DNA of 24,349 bases from a virus, in IMG/VR virus record IMGVR_UViG_3300030090_002129, positions 1 through 24,349 of that record. One strand, written 5' to 3'. A model generated the notes under the pieces. The model was not told the DNA's origin. It did not search any database and saw only the letters and a program-made list of their open reading frames with translations. Shown in pieces: positions 6,663 to 21,249 of this stretch. Every line of letters starts with the position of its first letter. Positions within the stretch are counted from its first letter, which is position 1. The position numbers and the translations under genes were made by a program.

Positions 6663-9600
6663 ATGCCTACATATTCTGTTGCTGGGCCAGATGGAAACAC
6701 ATATAGCATAGAAGGGCCAGAGGGTGCTACTCGTGAACAAGTAATTGGCGAAGTAATAAGGCAGTTACGAGAACAAGAACGAGAAGAAGCAAGTAAGCAA
6801 CGACAAGAACGATTAGCTGATATTAGAGAAAGTAGGCGAGGTTCTGTATCTCGCGGTCTTGATATTGGTACAGACCTCATTGCACAAGCTACAGGATCAA
6901 GCTTAGAAGGCATTGGTAGTCTTTTAGGGCTTGAAGGGCTTGAAGAATACGGTGCTGAAGTCGCACTAGAAAACGAAGCTGATATCCAACGTAAGTCACG
7001 TTACCAAACCCGTTTTGATGATATTGAAGGTGTAGGAGACTTTGGTTCTTACTTAGGTGGTATCGCTGCGGAAAGTGCTCCTCAAATGGGTGCTGGTCTA
7101 GCAGGTGCTGCGATAGGTACAGGAATACTTCCCGGTCTCGGTACGGTAGTAGGTGGTATAGCTGGTGCTACGCTTGCTAATCTTCCTTTCTTTTATGGTA
7201 TGAATCGTGAACGACAGAAAGAAGCTATAGACCAAGGGATTAAAACAGAAGTAGATGAAGGAGCTGCTTTTCTAACTGCCTTACCACAAGCTTTACTCGA
7301 CGGTATTGTAGATAAGTTATTACTAGGAGCAGGAAGCGGTTTTGGGTTTACCGAAAAAGCTATTCGTAGTGGAGGGTTATTTACCAGAGGTGCTAAGGGT
7401 ATAGGCACAGGTGTAATTACTGAAGCTCCTACTGAAGTAGGCCAACAAATGTTAGAGCGTGCCCAAGCTGGGTTATCGTTAGACAGTGATGAAGCAATAG
7501 CAGAGTACAGAGAAGCCGCGATTGCAGGTGGTTTATTAGGTGGTGCAGTTAGTGGAACGATTAATGTTGGTAGAGGAAGAATCCAACAAGAAGATACGAA
7601 TGTTATAGACAAAGACGGAGAAGATGCTACACCTATACCCAGAGAGACAGCACCTGTAGGAGCAGCAGGGTTAGGTGCGCTGGTAGATACACAAACAACT
7701 GATGCACTAAGTATATTAGCTGAAGAACAAGGTGGCCTTACCGATGCGGATGTAGCCGAGGCTAGAGAACAATTAGATACAGTTAGTCAGGTACAAACTA
7801 CTGATGATGCTTTATTTGATATGTTATCAGGAGGTATAGGAGCACAGTTAGAAACAGGAGTAGAAACAGGAGTAGAACCAGAAGCAGCGGCAGAAACCCG
7901 CGGTGCTACTAAAACTACAGACGTTGAACTTACAGATGATGCAATAGCTAAACTATTAAGAGAAGCGGGTAGAGCAGAAGAAAAAACAGACAGAATAATA
8001 GATGCTGTTGCAGACGCAGAAGAAAAAGCTTTTGAACAAGACTATGGTACTACGGAAACCCGCGATGCTACTGATACTGGAGATGTTGTTACAGAAGCAG
8101 AAGAGCAAAGAATAAAAGAAAGAGCAAAAGTAGGCGGTGTTTCAGTAGCTGATATGGATGAATCGTTTCAAATGGAAGTGATTACTCCTTCAAACTATAA
8201 AGACTTACCTAAAAAAGACCAAGAGTATTGGGATGCAGAAGCAGAAAGGCGCGGTGCTACTGATACTGTAGACGACGCGGCAGTAGAAAGGCGAAAAGAT
8301 CTAATTAATGAAGCTATAAGTAGTGTACCGGCCTTAACACAAAAGACTACAGATTCTGATAAGGCAGTATCACAAACAGAAAAGGCGGTATCGAAGCTAA
8401 CGGAATCTCCTTTTATTCGCCAAGCTCTTACTATGAAAAAGTTAAAAGAAAGTATAGAAGAAGCAGGGTTGCCAGAACTAACAACCCAAGAGTCTAAAGA
8501 AGTACGAGCGCAAGTAGTGGCGGCGATAAAACAAGAGGATGCGGGTAAAACACCTAAAGTAGTTACTGAGAAAGAAACTACCGATGTAGAAACCGAAACA
8601 GAAGTAGAAGCCGAACCAGAAGATAGACTCGAAACTATTGCTGAAGCAGTCGATACAGTAAAAGAAGAAACGCAAGAACAAATAGAGGCAGTTAGTCAGG
8701 TAGAAGAACAAGCAATAGAAGACGCAGAAAAGCTAATAAAGACAAAAGGTTTTAGCGGCAGAAAAGCTGAAGACTTTACCGATGAAGAGGTTAGTACCTT
8801 TGCTACGGCAATACCCGCGTTGGAAAGAAGTAAGATGTCTATGCGGGAAAAAGCTAACTATATAGAGATTATTTCTGCTGGCGATCAAGCTGATTTTATT
8901 GCTAAAGAAGGGCGCGAACCGACCAACGAAGAAAGAAGTGAGATATTTAATCGAGCTAAAAAAGAAGTAAACGCAGAACAAAAATTAATTTCTACACGAC
9001 TAGGTAAGCTCAAAAGAGCTACTAAGCCAGTACAAACTAAAGTTGAAGATAGAACCGCTGCCGTTGAAGCTGCAAAAGACGAAAAGCCCATAAGGGAAAG
9101 GCTTGATACTACGACTGAGGTTAAAGAAGCAGAGGTAGGTGTACTAGAAGCTAGAGAAGAAATAGAGAAAGGTGAAGTTGAAACTTTTGAAAAGAAGATA
9201 GAAAAATCAAAAAAGACAAGAACTACTTCTGAAAGAGAACAAGAAGAAATACAAAAATTAAATAAAGCAATAGACGAAAATTGGGAACAAACCCAACCTG
9301 AAGCGTATAAAGCCTTTGTAGACAGCGGCAAACAAAAAGTGGATGCTCCTAAGCTACCTCCAAACCTCAGTGACTCAGAAGCTGTAACAGAACTTTTCTT
9401 TGGAGAAGGGAAACTAACCGAACAAGAACAAGATGCGCTTACTTATCTAACCGCACACCCAACTTTAGAACGTAATCTATTTGATTTGGCTTATGATGTT
9501 GCGATAGATGCCCCTGAATATCGAGCATCAACAGGTTCTTCCGCTGCGGCAAAAGAATTTTTTGCTGGTAAAGGTGGCGTACACAAAGATAATGCTCTTG

Positions 9601-13810: not shown

Positions 13811-13840
13811 CCCCTTACCGAATAACGGAACGATAAGGGG
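13811..13840. terminator. hairpin between convergent operons
   Basis: CCCCTTA at 13811-13817 pairs with TAAGGGG at 13834-13840 (7 bp). After one C/A mismatch, two more inner pairs are possible. It begins 5 nt after the stop of the 2380-aa gene and lies before the end of the opposing operon. There is no clear T-run on either side, so it may be a bidirectional stabilising or Rho-assisted structure rather than a classical intrinsic terminator. Confidence 0.5.
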
Positions 13841-13895
13841 CCGAGTCTAGGGGAGTTTGTGCAATGAAAGTTATCCCATCACGTTAAAAATTCTA

Positions 13896-14111
13896 TCACA
13901 TAGTTCTCCAAAAACGCACGCCTAATTTACCTTTTTCTACACGAACTTCATGTTGCAAAGTCATGCCTTTGGTATGACCTACTTCTATAATTTCTCTTAA
14001 GACCTTATCAGTATTGATACAAGGGATGAACATAGAAGCCCCAACTACCATGTCCGTCCATTTAATAACTATCCGTATGCCATCAGGAGCAACGTCATCA
14101 ATCTTCCGCAT
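13896..14111 (-). CDS. small conserved-looking phage protein, 71 aa
   Basis: I chose the ATG at 14111; an in-frame TTG lies one codon upstream. The gene overlaps the end of the primase-helicase gene by 14 nt, a normal arrangement for the last gene of an operon. The sequence (DDVAPDGIRIVIKWTDMVVG, then FIPCINTDK, then a charged helix and a GKLGVRFWRTM ending) has strand-helix alternation and aromatic residues typical of a small folded protein. No named domain is recognised. The gene ends just before the convergent terminator-like hairpin. Function unknown. Confidence 0.6.
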   Translation of the reverse strand: MRKIDDVAPDGIRIVIKWTDMVVGASMFIPCINTDKVLREIIEVGHTKGMTLQHEVRVEKGKLGVRFWRTM

Positions 14112-16908
14112 CAACGTCTACACTAGAACAGTCTACTGAGATCACATCGGTAGATGGCAACTGCATATGTGTGCCTTTACCTAAACGCATCTTGGTTCTT
14201 TTCGCGCCAAGCTTATCTGTTAAGTCTTGTAAGAAAGAAGCGTAGTTTATCTGTTGCGCTCCACACCAAGTCCGTAAGAACTTAGGCACTAAATAAGCAC
14301 GTTTTGTGTCTGTCTCGTACCTAGCAACTAAAGCCCCTCTTGGCAAGGCATCGGGGACAATTAGTTGATTGAGTCCATTATTTTGAGCCTTTCGTAGATC
14401 ATCGGTGCTTTTAATCTGTAATATATTGTTCCAGTTCTCGTTTATATAATCATTAAGCAACTGCTCTACAGACTCGTTCATATCGTTAGAGGCGTTCTTA
14501 TTCTTCTTAAGTACTTCTAGTATCCACTTATAAACAGGCTTGGAGTCGTAGGGTAGTAGACCTATCTTATTGCATAGAATCAAAGCAGTTAGAGAACACG
14601 CAACTCCTGCTGACCAGAACCTGTTCTCCGCAGCCAGCCCTGCATCCTTATCTATGCGCTTCTGTACGTGTTCTAATATCCCTTTTATCTCTTCCAAGTT
14701 GTTAATAACGCACTGTACGAACGGTATACCCGCGTGTCCCCAATGGTTAAATATCTCTTTGCTGAACTTATCTGTCCTTTCTTTGTCAGAAGGAGACTTA
14801 AACATCTTATCTACTTTGTACTCTAATATACGCTGTGCTTCTGCCTTGGGCGCATTTTTGTACATCCCTATACGTTCGATAATACTTACGTTACCTGTAG
14901 ACACAGAGGTAAAGCTCCATGAAAGACCGTTGTATCGCTCTACGTTAGCACTGCCTGTAAGTCGTCTACGCTGCCTACCACTAACATACTGGTAAGCTAA
15001 GTTACTTAAATCTTTAGGACTGAGGTTAGTAATCTCATCTAAGAAAAAAGGTAAGCTATGATAGATCTCACCCCGATTCATCTTAGTGTTTAAGGTATCT
15101 TCTTTCTCCATCAACAGTTCTTTGGGGTTACCCCACGGAGTCAACGCTGCATACAGTGCTGTTGTTTTACCGTACCCTGTGTCCTTACTGTGAATGTGTA
15201 AAGAGGCGCACGCTACTGGCATGAGTTCCATAAGAATAGAACCAAAAGAAGCCCCAACAACATATTGATAAGTCTCTTGTCCTTCTTCATTAAAAAACCC
15301 CATCATCTCTTTCCAGCCTTCTAATGTACCTTTCGGTTCAAACGCGTGGAATAGCCCTGCTGTATTGGCAGAGGGCGGGTTAAATGCTATACGATCCCCA
15401 AATATCTCCATATTCCCTAGTATAAAAGACTTCATCTCTTCACTAGTCCAACCAAACTGTCGGTGCGCTTCATCAGCCGTAGCACTGGCTTGTAGCTCGT
15501 TCACCCACGTAGTTGTGTATTGCATAAGTTCGTCCATCCTACTAACAGCTACGCCCTGCATAGACATATGTTTACGAAACTCCTCCTTAGAGGTAGCCGC
15601 AGTAAGAGGCACTGTAAATTCCCTTACTCCGTCTTTGGGCAGGTGAAGCCGCATAACAATAGCTTCACCCATCTCTGCATCGCGTATACGTTTAACTACA
15701 TACAGGTCATTATGATATACCATCTTCTCTTCTATCTCTCCATCAGCACTACTGGAGCGAATGTATATACCCCCCTGCGCCCCTCTAAAATAAGGGCGGG
15801 GGTAGTCAGGTATGGTATAAACTTGAACTGGATTATTAGGTCTATCTGCCGAAGGAGCCTCAACTACGTTATCTCCTTCCTGTGCTTCTTTTATAGTTTT
15901 ACCTAACACTATAGGAGATTTTATCTTCCCCCAATGTTTACATTCAGTACATACGTTAGGGTTAAACTCATCAAACTTATCGCATAGATACGGGCCTTTT
16001 ATACCCTGTACCTTCTCAACAGTTTCTTCTTCGGAAAACTCTGGATGCCGTTTAGATATGTTAAATATAGCCTTATCAGAATCGACGCAAAACTTAGCTA
16101 TAGACAAACCCGCCCGCCACATAGGTTCGGTACATTCTTCTTGATTTCCAATTATCGCTGCTAGTTGAGCGCATCCATTGCCTTCTTCTGTCTTAACTAG
16201 GATGTCTCTAAATTTAGTTTCCATGTTTCCCATCAAGGCATCCATCATTGCGCTTGAGGGGGCAGGGGTAAACTTCTTAGGCACTGGTATCGCTTCACCG
16301 CCAAGTATTTCCGCGAACTCTTCAAAGTCTACTAATTCAGGTACTTCTACGCCCATAGGAAGCACTGGAAGAGGCGGATCTCCTTTGTGGTTATGGGTGT
16401 ACGGGATACGAAGTACTCGCGCCGCATCAGCAGTTACCGCTGGATCTGGTAAGAACTTATGGAGACCACAGTAACGCTTCAGTTGTTCCGCTACAGGTAA
16501 CCACTTCTCATACGATACTGCTTCTGATAAAGCCCAATAAACGTGTATGCCCCTACCAGAACTAATGATAAGAGGTTTAGGTAGCCCCACTTCTTTAGCG
16601 AAACTACGTAATGCGTGTATCCCTTCGGTCTGGTTTACATATTCTTTACTAGGGCCACAATCAATATCAAGGAAAAATGACTTTAACTCTTTAACATTAA
16701 GTGTTTTACGAGACCCTGCTTCTTTGAAGGTTCCCAACGCGAAGTACGTATCGAACCCTTCTTGATCTAAATTTGTTGCTGTGTGTATTAAGTCTTCTAG
16801 TGATGTATAAAATTTCTGTGTTCTTTTTTCTTCTGCAAGCTTTGAAGCGAAGAGGCAGTAATGACCATCCCCGCTAAGCACCCTCTGTAGAAATGTTTTT
16901 GAATCCAT
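14098..16908 (-). CDS. primase-helicase (AEP primase plus DUF927-like ATPase)
   Basis: The N-terminal half is an archaeo-eukaryotic-type primase: FFLDIDCG gives catalytic D81 and D83, SGRGIHVYWAL gives H122, and DAARVLRIPYTHNHK (161-175) carries the conserved basic residues and a further acidic candidate. A PriCT-like region follows, with a possible zinc site (C309, C320, C323, perhaps H325). The C-terminal half is a P-loop ATPase resembling DUF927 phage helicases: Walker A DTGYGKT with K581 and T582, and Walker B LPFFLDE with D624 and E625. The protein should synthesise primers and unwind DNA at the phage fork. At 936 aa the fusion looks complete. A GGGTAAAA-type direct repeat precedes the ATG. 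The assignment to primase plus helicase is strong; the helicase subfamily is less certain. Confidence 0.88.
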   Translation of the reverse strand: MDSKTFLQRVLSGDGHYCLFASKLAEEKRTQKFYTSLEDLIHTATNLDQEGFDTYFALGTFKEAGSRKTLNVKELKSFFLDIDCGPSKEYVNQTEGIHALRSFAKEVGLPKPLIISSGRGIHVYWALSEAVSYEKWLPVAEQLKRYCGLHKFLPDPAVTADAARVLRIPYTHNHKGDPPLPVLPMGVEVPELVDFEEFAEILGGEAIPVPKKFTPAPSSAMMDALMGNMETKFRDILVKTEEGNGCAQLAAIIGNQEECTEPMWRAGLSIAKFCVDSDKAIFNISKRHPEFSEEETVEKVQGIKGPYLCDKFDEFNPNVCTECKHWGKIKSPIVLGKTIKEAQEGDNVVEAPSADRPNNPVQVYTIPDYPRPYFRGAQGGIYIRSSSADGEIEEKMVYHNDLYVVKRIRDAEMGEAIVMRLHLPKDGVREFTVPLTAATSKEEFRKHMSMQGVAVSRMDELMQYTTTWVNELQASATADEAHRQFGWTSEEMKSFILGNMEIFGDRIAFNPPSANTAGLFHAFEPKGTLEGWKEMMGFFNEEGQETYQYVVGASFGSILMELMPVACASLHIHSKDTGYGKTTALYAALTPWGNPKELLMEKEDTLNTKMNRGEIYHSLPFFLDEITNLSPKDLSNLAYQYVSGRQRRRLTGSANVERYNGLSWSFTSVSTGNVSIIERIGMYKNAPKAEAQRILEYKVDKMFKSPSDKERTDKFSKEIFNHWGHAGIPFVQCVINNLEEIKGILEHVQKRIDKDAGLAAENRFWSAGVACSLTALILCNKIGLLPYDSKPVYKWILEVLKKNKNASNDMNESVEQLLNDYINENWNNILQIKSTDDLRKAQNNGLNQLIVPDALPRGALVARYETDTKRAYLVPKFLRTWCGAQQINYASFLQDLTDKLGAKRTKMRLGKGTHMQLPSTDVISVDCSSVDVDAED

Positions 16909-19278: not shown

Positions 19279-20814
19279 TTATACAAGTATTTCTTTGTAT
19301 AAATCTATCATTTTTGTGTGTACGTCTATTCTATTATCAAGTAATGAGTATACGCGTTTTTCTATGGAAGATCCTTCTAGCTGTACCACGGTGCATTTAT
19401 GGTCTTGCCCTGCTCTATGTACCCTAGCGTTAGCTTGAGCATAAGTTTCTAAAGAACTAGTTGGCCCCCACCAAACTACTGTATTTGCAGCAGTTAAAGT
19501 AATACCGTGGGCCGCAGCTTGCGGTTGTATGACAAGGACTTGTGGGGAGTCGGTTTCTTGAAATCTTTTAAATATATCAGTGCGTTTATTAACTGATACA
19601 TCACCTCTAATTATTTCTGTAGGTATACCGTCCTGTACTAGTTTGCTAGTAAGAACGTCAATAACGTGTTTAAAAGGAACAAATACTAGTACTTTCTTAC
19701 TAGATTCATCGATTACTTCCCTAAGTACTTTATATCTGTGTTTGATATCAAACTCTAACGCTTCTCCGTCATCGGTATATATAGCACCAGAAGCTATTTG
19801 CAGCAGTTTGTTCATCTCTACAGCAGCGTTTACAGCCGTTATCTGTTCTCCCCCTGCCTGTACCACTAGTTTATTTCTAAGTTCGTTGTAATATTTCTTC
19901 TGTTGCCGTGTCATCTCTACCGTTCGTTTGGTATAGATCATGTCAGGTAGATCAAGACACTCTTCTTTTGTAAACCGTATAGCTGGCTGTAGAGCTTTAA
20001 ATACAGTATCAGTAGCATCTGGTCTTGCTAACCATTTGAAGTTGGTTATCTTGTACATAACCATGTCTCTAAATGCACTAAAGAAACGTGGTACAGAATT
20101 AGGGTTAACTAATTTAGCCAAACCAAAAGCATCTAATGGTGACTGAGCAGCGGGGGTTCCTGTCATCATCCACAACCATGTGTCAGGCGTGACTAGTTTA
20201 TTAAGAACTTTCCACCGTCTAGTCTGTACGTTTTTATAGTGGGTAGCTTCATCTGCGATTATTAAATCAAACCCACCGTTTGCTATTGCATCGGCTACTA
20301 TCTCCACACCGTCATAATTAATTACTATAAACTCTGCACCACCTTCTATTATTTGTTTGCGTTTGTCAGAAGAACCGTAAGCGATATCCACAGAACGGTG
20401 CATTGCAAAGGTAAACAAATCTTTTCGCCACGCTGAATCCATAATAGATAGAGGGCATATGACTAAGACACGGTTAATACGGCCTTGGTTCATAAGATAG
20501 TCTGCGGCCCATATCGCACTAGCGGTCTTGCCTGTACCCTGTTCGTTAAAGCAGAACGCACGTTTATTCATGGTAAGAAAAGAGGATGTGGTTTTCTGGT
20601 GATCGAAAGGTTTATGTTTACCTGTCCACCTATACTGCCCCTCGATGGGGGATGGGACTTTTATGTTAAGGTTTTTTAATACGTGCGACTCGTCAACTCC
20701 CCAGTTCACCAGTACTTTGTTTCCTGATAATCTCTTACTCTTAGGTATGATATCCGTTACTTTTTCTGGGTCACGTAGGTTTAATAGTATTGCCCTGTTA
20801 TCTATCACCCGCAT
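19279..20814 (-). CDS. SNF2-type superfamily 2 DNA helicase/translocase
   Basis: The 511-aa protein starts at ATG 20814, with GGAG 6 nt upstream on the minus strand. Motifs in order: an F(D)HQK segment at about 70-74 that resembles the SNF2 Q-like motif; Walker A NEQGTGKT with K96 and T97; DEAT at 188-191 (motif II); MTGTPA at about 217-222 (motif III); a second RecA-like lobe with VLVFVPF at about 375-381; VLVIQPQAAAHGITLT; and motif VI QANARVHRAGQ at 460-470 with R464 and R467. This is the compact SNF2 helicase seen in phage and prophage replication modules alongside PolA and Cas4-like nucleases. It probably remodels forks or recombination intermediates. No extra domains are present. Confidence 0.9.
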   Translation of the reverse strand: MRVIDNRAILLNLRDPEKVTDIIPKSKRLSGNKVLVNWGVDESHVLKNLNIKVPSPIEGQYRWTGKHKPFDHQKTTSSFLTMNKRAFCFNEQGTGKTASAIWAADYLMNQGRINRVLVICPLSIMDSAWRKDLFTFAMHRSVDIAYGSSDKRKQIIEGGAEFIVINYDGVEIVADAIANGGFDLIIADEATHYKNVQTRRWKVLNKLVTPDTWLWMMTGTPAAQSPLDAFGLAKLVNPNSVPRFFSAFRDMVMYKITNFKWLARPDATDTVFKALQPAIRFTKEECLDLPDMIYTKRTVEMTRQQKKYYNELRNKLVVQAGGEQITAVNAAVEMNKLLQIASGAIYTDDGEALEFDIKHRYKVLREVIDESSKKVLVFVPFKHVIDVLTSKLVQDGIPTEIIRGDVSVNKRTDIFKRFQETDSPQVLVIQPQAAAHGITLTAANTVVWWGPTSSLETYAQANARVHRAGQDHKCTVVQLEGSSIEKRVYSLLDNRIDVHTKMIDLYKEILV

Positions 20815-20839
20815 TTACTTCTCCATGCACAAACTTACA

Positions 20840-20940
20840 TCGTAAAGTGGTGTCCACAATACGAACTAGATGCCGTCTCTAGTACCCACGGACGGCGCGT
20901 GGTGGGTTTGCCCACTAGGGGATGGGGCTTAGTACTAAGC
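20840..20940 (-). promoter_or_regulatory. five-hairpin structured leader, possible kissing loops
   Basis: The gap before the helicase gene holds abutting hairpins. (1) 20840-20864: TCGTA with TACGA, inner GTGG with CCAC, a 2x2 AA bulge and a 3-nt loop. (2) 20865-20883: ACTAGA with TCTAGT, 7-nt loop. (3) 20886-20902: CCACG with CGTGG, 7-nt loop. (4) 20903-20914: TGGG with CCCA, 4-nt loop. (5) 20927-20940: the perfect palindrome GCTTAGTACTAAGC, which contains the stop codon of the HNH-like gene. GCCGTC in loop 2 (20872-20877) is the exact complement of GACGGC in loop 3 (20891-20896), so the loops could kiss or form a pseudoknot. CCCAC/GTGGG/CCCAC arms also allow alternative folds. I assign no known RNA family. 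Confidence 0.65.
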
Positions 20941-21249
20941 TCTTCTCGTAGTACGTTTCTTTGGCTTCTTGCCGTTACGACTACGATTCTTACTTTTACT
21001 TTCTATCTTGTACCCATCGGCGTTTGTACCGCCTTTGCTCAACATCTTCTTATGGCTAACATCTTTCCCCTCTCGCTTGTCAGCCTTACCGTTATTATTC
21101 CTGTCGCCACCTGATTTTCTCGCTTCCTTATCTAGCTTTCTTCTAGCACGTTGACGCTCCATGCGGTCTTCGTGTTCCCCACGTTTTAATTGGAGTTGGT
21201 ACTCTCTTTTGTAGGGTCTGCGCTTGCCTTTACCTGTTCGCTTATACAC
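20935..21249 (-). CDS. small basic HNH-like protein
   Basis: The GTG at 21249 has GGAGG about 9 nt upstream and lies 3 nt after the nuclease stop. The 104-residue product is extremely rich in Lys and Arg. Near residue 60 it reads GKDVSHKKMLSKGGTNADGY and then SKSKNRSRNGK. This resembles the core of phage HNH proteins ('DH..PLSKGGTN......N.....CN..KG'), with a His and an Asn in place. The usual Asp before the His is replaced by Ser, and no zinc cysteines are visible, so activity is uncertain. It may be a nuclease, a nicking accessory or a basic nucleic-acid-binding protein. Its stop lies in a palindrome that opens the structured gap. Confidence 0.65.
   Translation of the reverse strand: MYKRTGKGKRRPYKREYQLQLKRGEHEDRMERQRARRKLDKEARKSGGDRNNNGKADKREGKDVSHKKMLSKGGTNADGYKIESKSKNRSRNGKKPKKRTTRRA

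Follow-up and report, generated by a model that had tools for sequence, protein, structure and literature searches.

A predicted pseudoknotted RNA, conserved ahead of unrelated genes in uncultivated phages, as a candidate barrier to message decay

The short gap ahead of an SNF2-type helicase gene in a marine-type phage almost certainly encodes, as judged by comparison with its relatives, a conserved RNA that would fold from the minus strand into a three-way junction with a pseudoknot. The window, i.e. the whole stretch of DNA analysed, is the entire 24,349-base virus record, probably a fragment. Within it the element lies in a 120-nt gap (20815-20934) separating two minus-strand genes: an upstream gene of 104 aa and unknown function (20935-21249, phrog_4590), whose stop codon overlaps the outer helix of the element, and the downstream helicase gene (19279-20814, 511 aa; Pfam PF00176/PF00271, phrog_62), for which a Shine-Dalgarno-like GGAG can be read on the same strand at 20821-20824. 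The gap is surrounded by a replication cluster that includes DNA polymerase A, a PD-(D/E)XK exonuclease, an HTH protein, a Gp2.5-like SSB and a DUF927 primase/helicase; the 936-aa protein with a DUF927 domain encoded in this cluster at 14098-16908 (minus) matches phage primase/helicase families. Since the helicase gene is on the minus strand, the transcript of the gap is the reverse complement of the strand that was read in the original prediction.

Fold of the window copy

The order of the parts in the RNA, obtained by comparison with relatives, is 5'-P0-hairpin-S1(loop=S2)-P0'-GAA-S2'-3'. P0 is a helix of 4 bp with a nearly invariant closing G-C pair that encloses a variable hairpin and the hairpin S1, and S2 is formed by pairing of the S1 loop with bases immediately 3' of P0. 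In the window copy (all coordinates minus strand) the 5' strand of P0 is GUAC at 20932-20935, located by the descriptor and by covariance model R2 and covarying in relatives; it starts with the G of the UAG codon that terminates the upstream gene, and the strand can be extended to UUAGUAC (20932-20938). There follow the variable hairpin (20903-20914, UGGG/CCCA with loop CAAA), which is reduced to 3 pairs in relative L001, and S1 (20886-20902), in which CCACG (20898-20902) pairs with CGUGG (20886-20890) and compensatory changes are found in relatives. The S1 loop holds the covarying 5' strand of S2, GCCGUC (20891-20896), and the 3' strand of P0, GUAC at 20882-20885 by the descriptor and model R2, abuts the 3' end of S1. 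A joining segment UAGA (20878-20881), which is GAA or GAAGC in most relatives, leads to the 3' strand of S2, GACGGC (20872-20877), which sequence and descriptor place at the 3' end of the element. The pairings are 20935-20932 with 20885-20882 for P0, 20902-20898 with 20890-20886 for S1, and 20896-20891 with 20877-20872 for S2.

The original prediction described five independent abutting hairpins with kissing loops. Its sequence observations are borne out: GCCGTC (20872-20877) is exactly complementary to GACGGC (20891-20896), stems are present at 20840-20864 (5+4 bp), 20886-20902 (5 bp) and 20902-20915 (5 bp), and the ACTAGA/TCTAGT hairpin and a 16-nt palindrome can both be found. The arrangement itself has to be replaced by a three-way junction with a pseudoknot, followed by a separate stem-loop. 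Compensatory changes preserve P0, S1, S2 and the 20840-20864 hairpin among relatives, and the fourth of the five hairpins lies at the place of the relatives' variable hairpin; the second (ACTAGA/TCTAGT) and the fifth (the palindrome) are not conserved, being broken in L001 and absent from L003 and L004, and their arms are strands of P0, so that they compete with P0 and S2. The further claim, that such an array is hard to get by chance, holds for the composite score of P0, S1 and S2, which not one of 2000 dinucleotide-shuffled versions of the 180-nt region attained, but not for nested folding alone on the transcribed minus strand, which is weak (z -1.05, with 29 of 200 shuffles folding as well). 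On the plus strand nested folding gives z -2.54, and 2 of 200 shuffles are as good. Model R2, built with the window left out, matches it at 20938-20871 with a modest score of 16 bits (E = 0.024), and the window copy is bridged to the bulk of its class (class A) by L001, whose helicase is 94% identical, and by L003 and L004.

Covariation among relatives and comparison with known RNA families

A search with the helicase yielded 80 viral loci whose leaders were inspected directly, and two features recur among them: a pseudoknot, and a stem-loop ahead of the Shine-Dalgarno sequence. The additional 4-bp helix P0 was spotted by eye: the bases that follow UUA or UAA, upstream of S1, pair with those lying between S1 and the 3' strand of S2, as GGCC/GGCC, GACC/GGTC, GGTC/GACC, GGGC/GCCC, GGCT/AGCC, GTAC/GTAC, GTCC/GGAC, GTTC/GAAC, GTCT/AGAC, GCTT/AAGC and GCTC/GAGC among others. 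A single descriptor accommodates about 288 copies from about 250 viral loci, which overlap in part; at a score of at least 37 it finds 229 copies vs 8 in the reversed-sequence null. Two classes are distinguished, class A with S1 like GCACG/CGUGU, S2 like UCCCGUC/GGCGGGA and a GAA joint, and class B with S1 like CAGA/UCUG, S2 like AGCCCU/AGGGCU and a GAAGC joint.

Pairs were counted in hand-picked sets and then in covariance-model hits, S2 being absent from the structure of the models. Among 63 distinct class A copies 96.3% of cells are paired, with double changes at 12 of 16 pairs, pairing as good in 0 of 500 shuffles and 35-53% in slid controls; the 38 class B copies have 98.4% paired and double changes at 9 of 15 pairs (again 0/500 shuffles), although these are alignments of related phages, so that the shuffles overstate significance, a bias answered in part by the slid controls and by the pattern-free positions described below. 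In both classes all three helices covary.

Because the descriptor itself selects for pairing, a less biased test was run in which patterns with some bases fixed and others free were scanned over all viral contigs. The free positions were paired in 58/58, 58/58, 57/57, 57/57 and 57/57 copies. At the two most variable of them, in S2 and S1 of class B, no shuffle out of 2000 exceeded 50 and 48, respectively; the three others are nearly invariant, with shuffle maxima of 56 to 58, and add little. Of 56 class A copies, 51 have a P0 upstream, against a shuffle mean of 22 and maximum of 34; for class B the count is 42 of 55, against a mean of 25 and maximum of 32. The P0-S1 segment folds as a hairpin beyond mononucleotide shuffles (mean z -2.3 over 75 distinct segments). 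G.U pairs number 176 vs 12 A.C, and the helicase-sense strand therefore carries the structure. The variable hairpin keeps its place in relatives and changes in sequence, and few unpaired bases are conserved, i.e. UNA ahead of P0 and GAA behind it. Conservation and covariation had been named beforehand as the test of the prediction; with compensatory changes found, the finding survives.

With the covariance models of Rfam 15 the window gave no match at the gathering threshold, and with E values allowed up to 1-5 the matches in the window region and 16 loci were all at chance level, lying outside the element or involving an unrelated snoRNA. No description of the element was found in the open-access literature. 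The family is absent from Rfam 15, and the suggestion of a structured RNA of no known family is upheld by the covariation of stems and loop pairing as well as by the excess of G.U on the message strand. The pistol ribozyme and the H-type riboswitches (preQ1, SAM-II, guanidine-III) share with the element a small pseudoknot made by a hairpin loop; unlike it they are without the P0 three-way junction, and no Rfam covariance model matches it. What emerges is a well-supported structured RNA family outside Rfam borne by a large group of uncultivated phages.

Placement of the element and its possible function

The element is carried by many uncultivated phages; cultivated phages and bacterial genomes are essentially without it. 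Cultivated phages gave no DNA match to the region or to a class A copy, and the class A pattern had a single match in 84,980 prokaryote genomes (GTDB), in a Flavobacteriales MAG, where it lies on a 34-kb contig bearing phage genes. Whole records show a single site in each phage, apart from a second, weak match in one record. By the descriptor, 225 loci have one copy, 17 have two and 9 have three, the loci partly overlapping; tandem units are usually separated by 7-9 nt and differ in their P0 and hairpin sequences. Start codons were assigned by rule rather than by a gene finder. On that basis the last copy mostly has its 3' end 12-28 nt upstream of a start codon and leaves the Shine-Dalgarno sequence free. 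In many phages of class B and some of class A the helicase start follows after 12-19 nt; where a second stem-loop intervenes, as in the window (57 nt), the distance is 54-61 nt. Before unrelated genes it is mostly 16-31 nt (16 in L231; 17 in L192 and L205; 18 in L191, L209 and L211; 19 in L243; 23 in L226; 24 in L282; 26 in L195; 31 in L248), and a minority of copies have no start called within 60 nt, though small genes may be missed there. The downstream genes belong to about a dozen unrelated families, and neighbours in other loci include genes for a Sak4-like ATPase, an SSB, an exonuclease VIII-like protein and a small terminase.

This placement suggests that the element is probably a cis-acting intercistronic leader RNA. 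The gap between the 104-aa gene and the helicase gene would be transcribed from the minus strand as such a leader, decay or processing from the 5' side would be halted at the knot, and the downstream message would thereby retain an intact translation start. The likeliest single role is accordingly put, at a probability of about 0.4, as that of a message-protecting barrier to 5' decay or processing. A mechanical role, rather than that of a gene-specific switch, is suggested because the fold ends before the ribosome-binding site without hiding it; a ligand switch is the less attractive because there are few conserved unpaired bases, tandem copies and unrelated downstream genes. The barrier is favoured because the connectivity of the predicted fold equals that of the flaviviral Xrn1-resistant RNAs (xrRNAs), three-way junctions with an L3-S4 pseudoknot that occur in tandem and whose folds are able to halt RNase J1, a bacterial 5'-3' exonuclease, in vitro (PMC5760640). 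The order and topology of the helices would be the same: P0, the variable hairpin and S1 correspond to the outer helix around two hairpins, and S2 to the pseudoknot between the loop of the second hairpin and the bases that immediately follow the outer helix; both are often in tandem. The element differs in having no sequence similarity to xrRNA (no Rfam match) and in its setting, ahead of ribosome-binding sites in the bacterial message of a DNA phage rather than in a 3' UTR. In an xrRNA the 5' nucleotides also pair with the junction, so that the 5' end is enclosed by a ring; in the element, where the conserved UNA flank precedes P0, such a ring would be hypothetical. It is not classed here as an xrRNA, the likeness being one of connectivity and the exonuclease stop putative. 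Speaking against the barrier, some helicase relatives (L018, L020, L024) have no gap and no element, and some copies are far from a start. It is a doubtful further proposition that phages, independently of eukaryotic viruses, have evolved xrRNA-like knots that would halt 5'-3' decay in bacteria and leave the remaining 5' end directly ahead of a ribosome-binding site. If it is a decay barrier, the element would be the equivalent, in a DNA phage, of the flaviviral xrRNAs, and would offer a small natural part with which bacterial messages could be protected.

The main rival to the barrier, possible though somewhat doubtful, is a translational operator, in which the following gene would be repressed or activated by a phage protein, such as the SSB or the helicase, bound to the pseudoknot beside the ribosome-binding site. 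The precedent is phage T4 gp32, which acts in this way on its own message, and the gene 32 operators of T4 and RB69 have diverged in sequence with similar structure (PMC535899). Like these, the element is a phage leader pseudoknot 5' of the Shine-Dalgarno sequence of a replication gene; many copies have SSB, Sak4, exonuclease and helicase genes around them in a replication cluster, and tandem sites fit cooperative binding. The gene 32 operator differs as a simple pseudoknot of ~28 nt serving a single gene, where the element has an extra enclosing helix, tandem copies and unrelated genes. Autogenous control is tied to the gene of the binding protein, and since the downstream families are so varied, including a gene that follows the small terminase, autogenous control by one protein cannot account for all copies. 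If an operator, the element would provide common post-transcriptional control of unrelated phage replication genes. Structure between a stop codon and a Shine-Dalgarno sequence could instead insulate or couple translation, blocking ribosome sliding and re-initiation or being opened by terminating ribosomes. P0 does start exactly at the upstream UAG or UAA in the window and several relatives, and class B leaders have another pseudoknot that extends through the gap toward the upstream gene; yet a long-frame stop is at this place in only 11 of 87 distinct copies, by which the stop codon was rejected as a generally required signal, the UNA-G motif is kept also where it is not a stop, and tandem copies are more than would be needed, so this role is distinctly unlikely.

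A small-molecule riboswitch or transcription attenuator, to which the leader position, the pseudoknot, the G+C-rich S2 and the T runs after some copies might point, is very unlikely in view of the Shine-Dalgarno sequence outside the fold, the few conserved unpaired bases available for a ligand pocket and the unrelated downstream genes, whose variety excludes a helicase-specific riboswitch. An intrinsic terminator was likewise rejected, as a T5 run lies within 8 nt of S2 in only 19 of 123 distinct copies; the window copy continues with ATCTAGTT directly after S2, and not with the U run that follows the G+C-rich helix of a terminator. Tandem pseudoknots at one site per phage with varied neighbours also recall the type III antitoxin RNAs (ToxI, CptI, TenpI), which are repeated pseudoknots described in the literature, and a trans-acting small RNA or decoy could mimic such an antitoxin against host defence. 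Those near-identical repeats, however, lie beside an endoribonuclease gene; the units of the element are ~55-90 nt long and divergent, no toxin-like gene was seen adjacent and none of the flanking genes in annotated loci is ToxN, and the near-fixed spacing to start codons points to action in cis, which makes a trans-acting role highly improbable. The original prediction had also offered a single-stranded DNA element such as an origin, or a priming site might be imagined. The single site per phage, often in a replication cluster, and the iteron-like repeats after the element in L142 would suit it, and strand bias alone is compatible with single-stranded DNA, but the near-fixed distance to start codons of unrelated genes on the coding strand, and the copy in L250 and L192 that starts at the small terminase gene's stop codon, ahead of the following gene, leave it very unlikely.

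Neighbouring elements and other features

The stem-loop at 20840-20864 (minus), the first of the five hairpins originally described, is a second conserved element, of the same shape with altered pairs in many helicase leaders. Its lower stem UCGUA/UACGA, internal loop UU/UU, upper stem GUGG/CCAC and loop ACA represent the common build of a lower stem, a mostly U-rich internal loop, an upper stem and an ACA, ACAC or AGA loop. It is also seen in the leaders of L003, L008, L041, L060, L075, L154 and L218, in L060 without the pseudoknot element, and the leader listing shows both stems changing together between relatives.

Class B leaders have a second pseudoknot upstream, in which the loop of a GACGC/GCGUC hairpin pairs with AUCAGG-like bases directly 5' of P0 (e.g. 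L037, L078, L014, L313, L320). Its stem also occurs as GUGC/GCAC and GAUGC/GCAUC, i.e. with covariation, and all six pairs are present in 30 of 33 distinct combinations.

Between the element and the helicase gene of L142 there is an iteron-like array (9486-9578) of 11 copies of GTTATTCA, possibly an origin or protein-binding array, and similar repeats are visible in L160 and L113. At 6055-6121 of L075 the int-alpA RNA family is matched below threshold (28.3 bits vs a gathering threshold of 35.8). Elsewhere in the window a 9-base unit (TACAGATAC) is repeated 15 times in tandem at 2507-2641 within a 967-aa open frame, giving a repetitive protein stretch, and an H-type pseudoknot-like sequence at 13813-13843 (minus), in the gap close to where the structural and replication gene blocks converge, is possibly part of a terminator.
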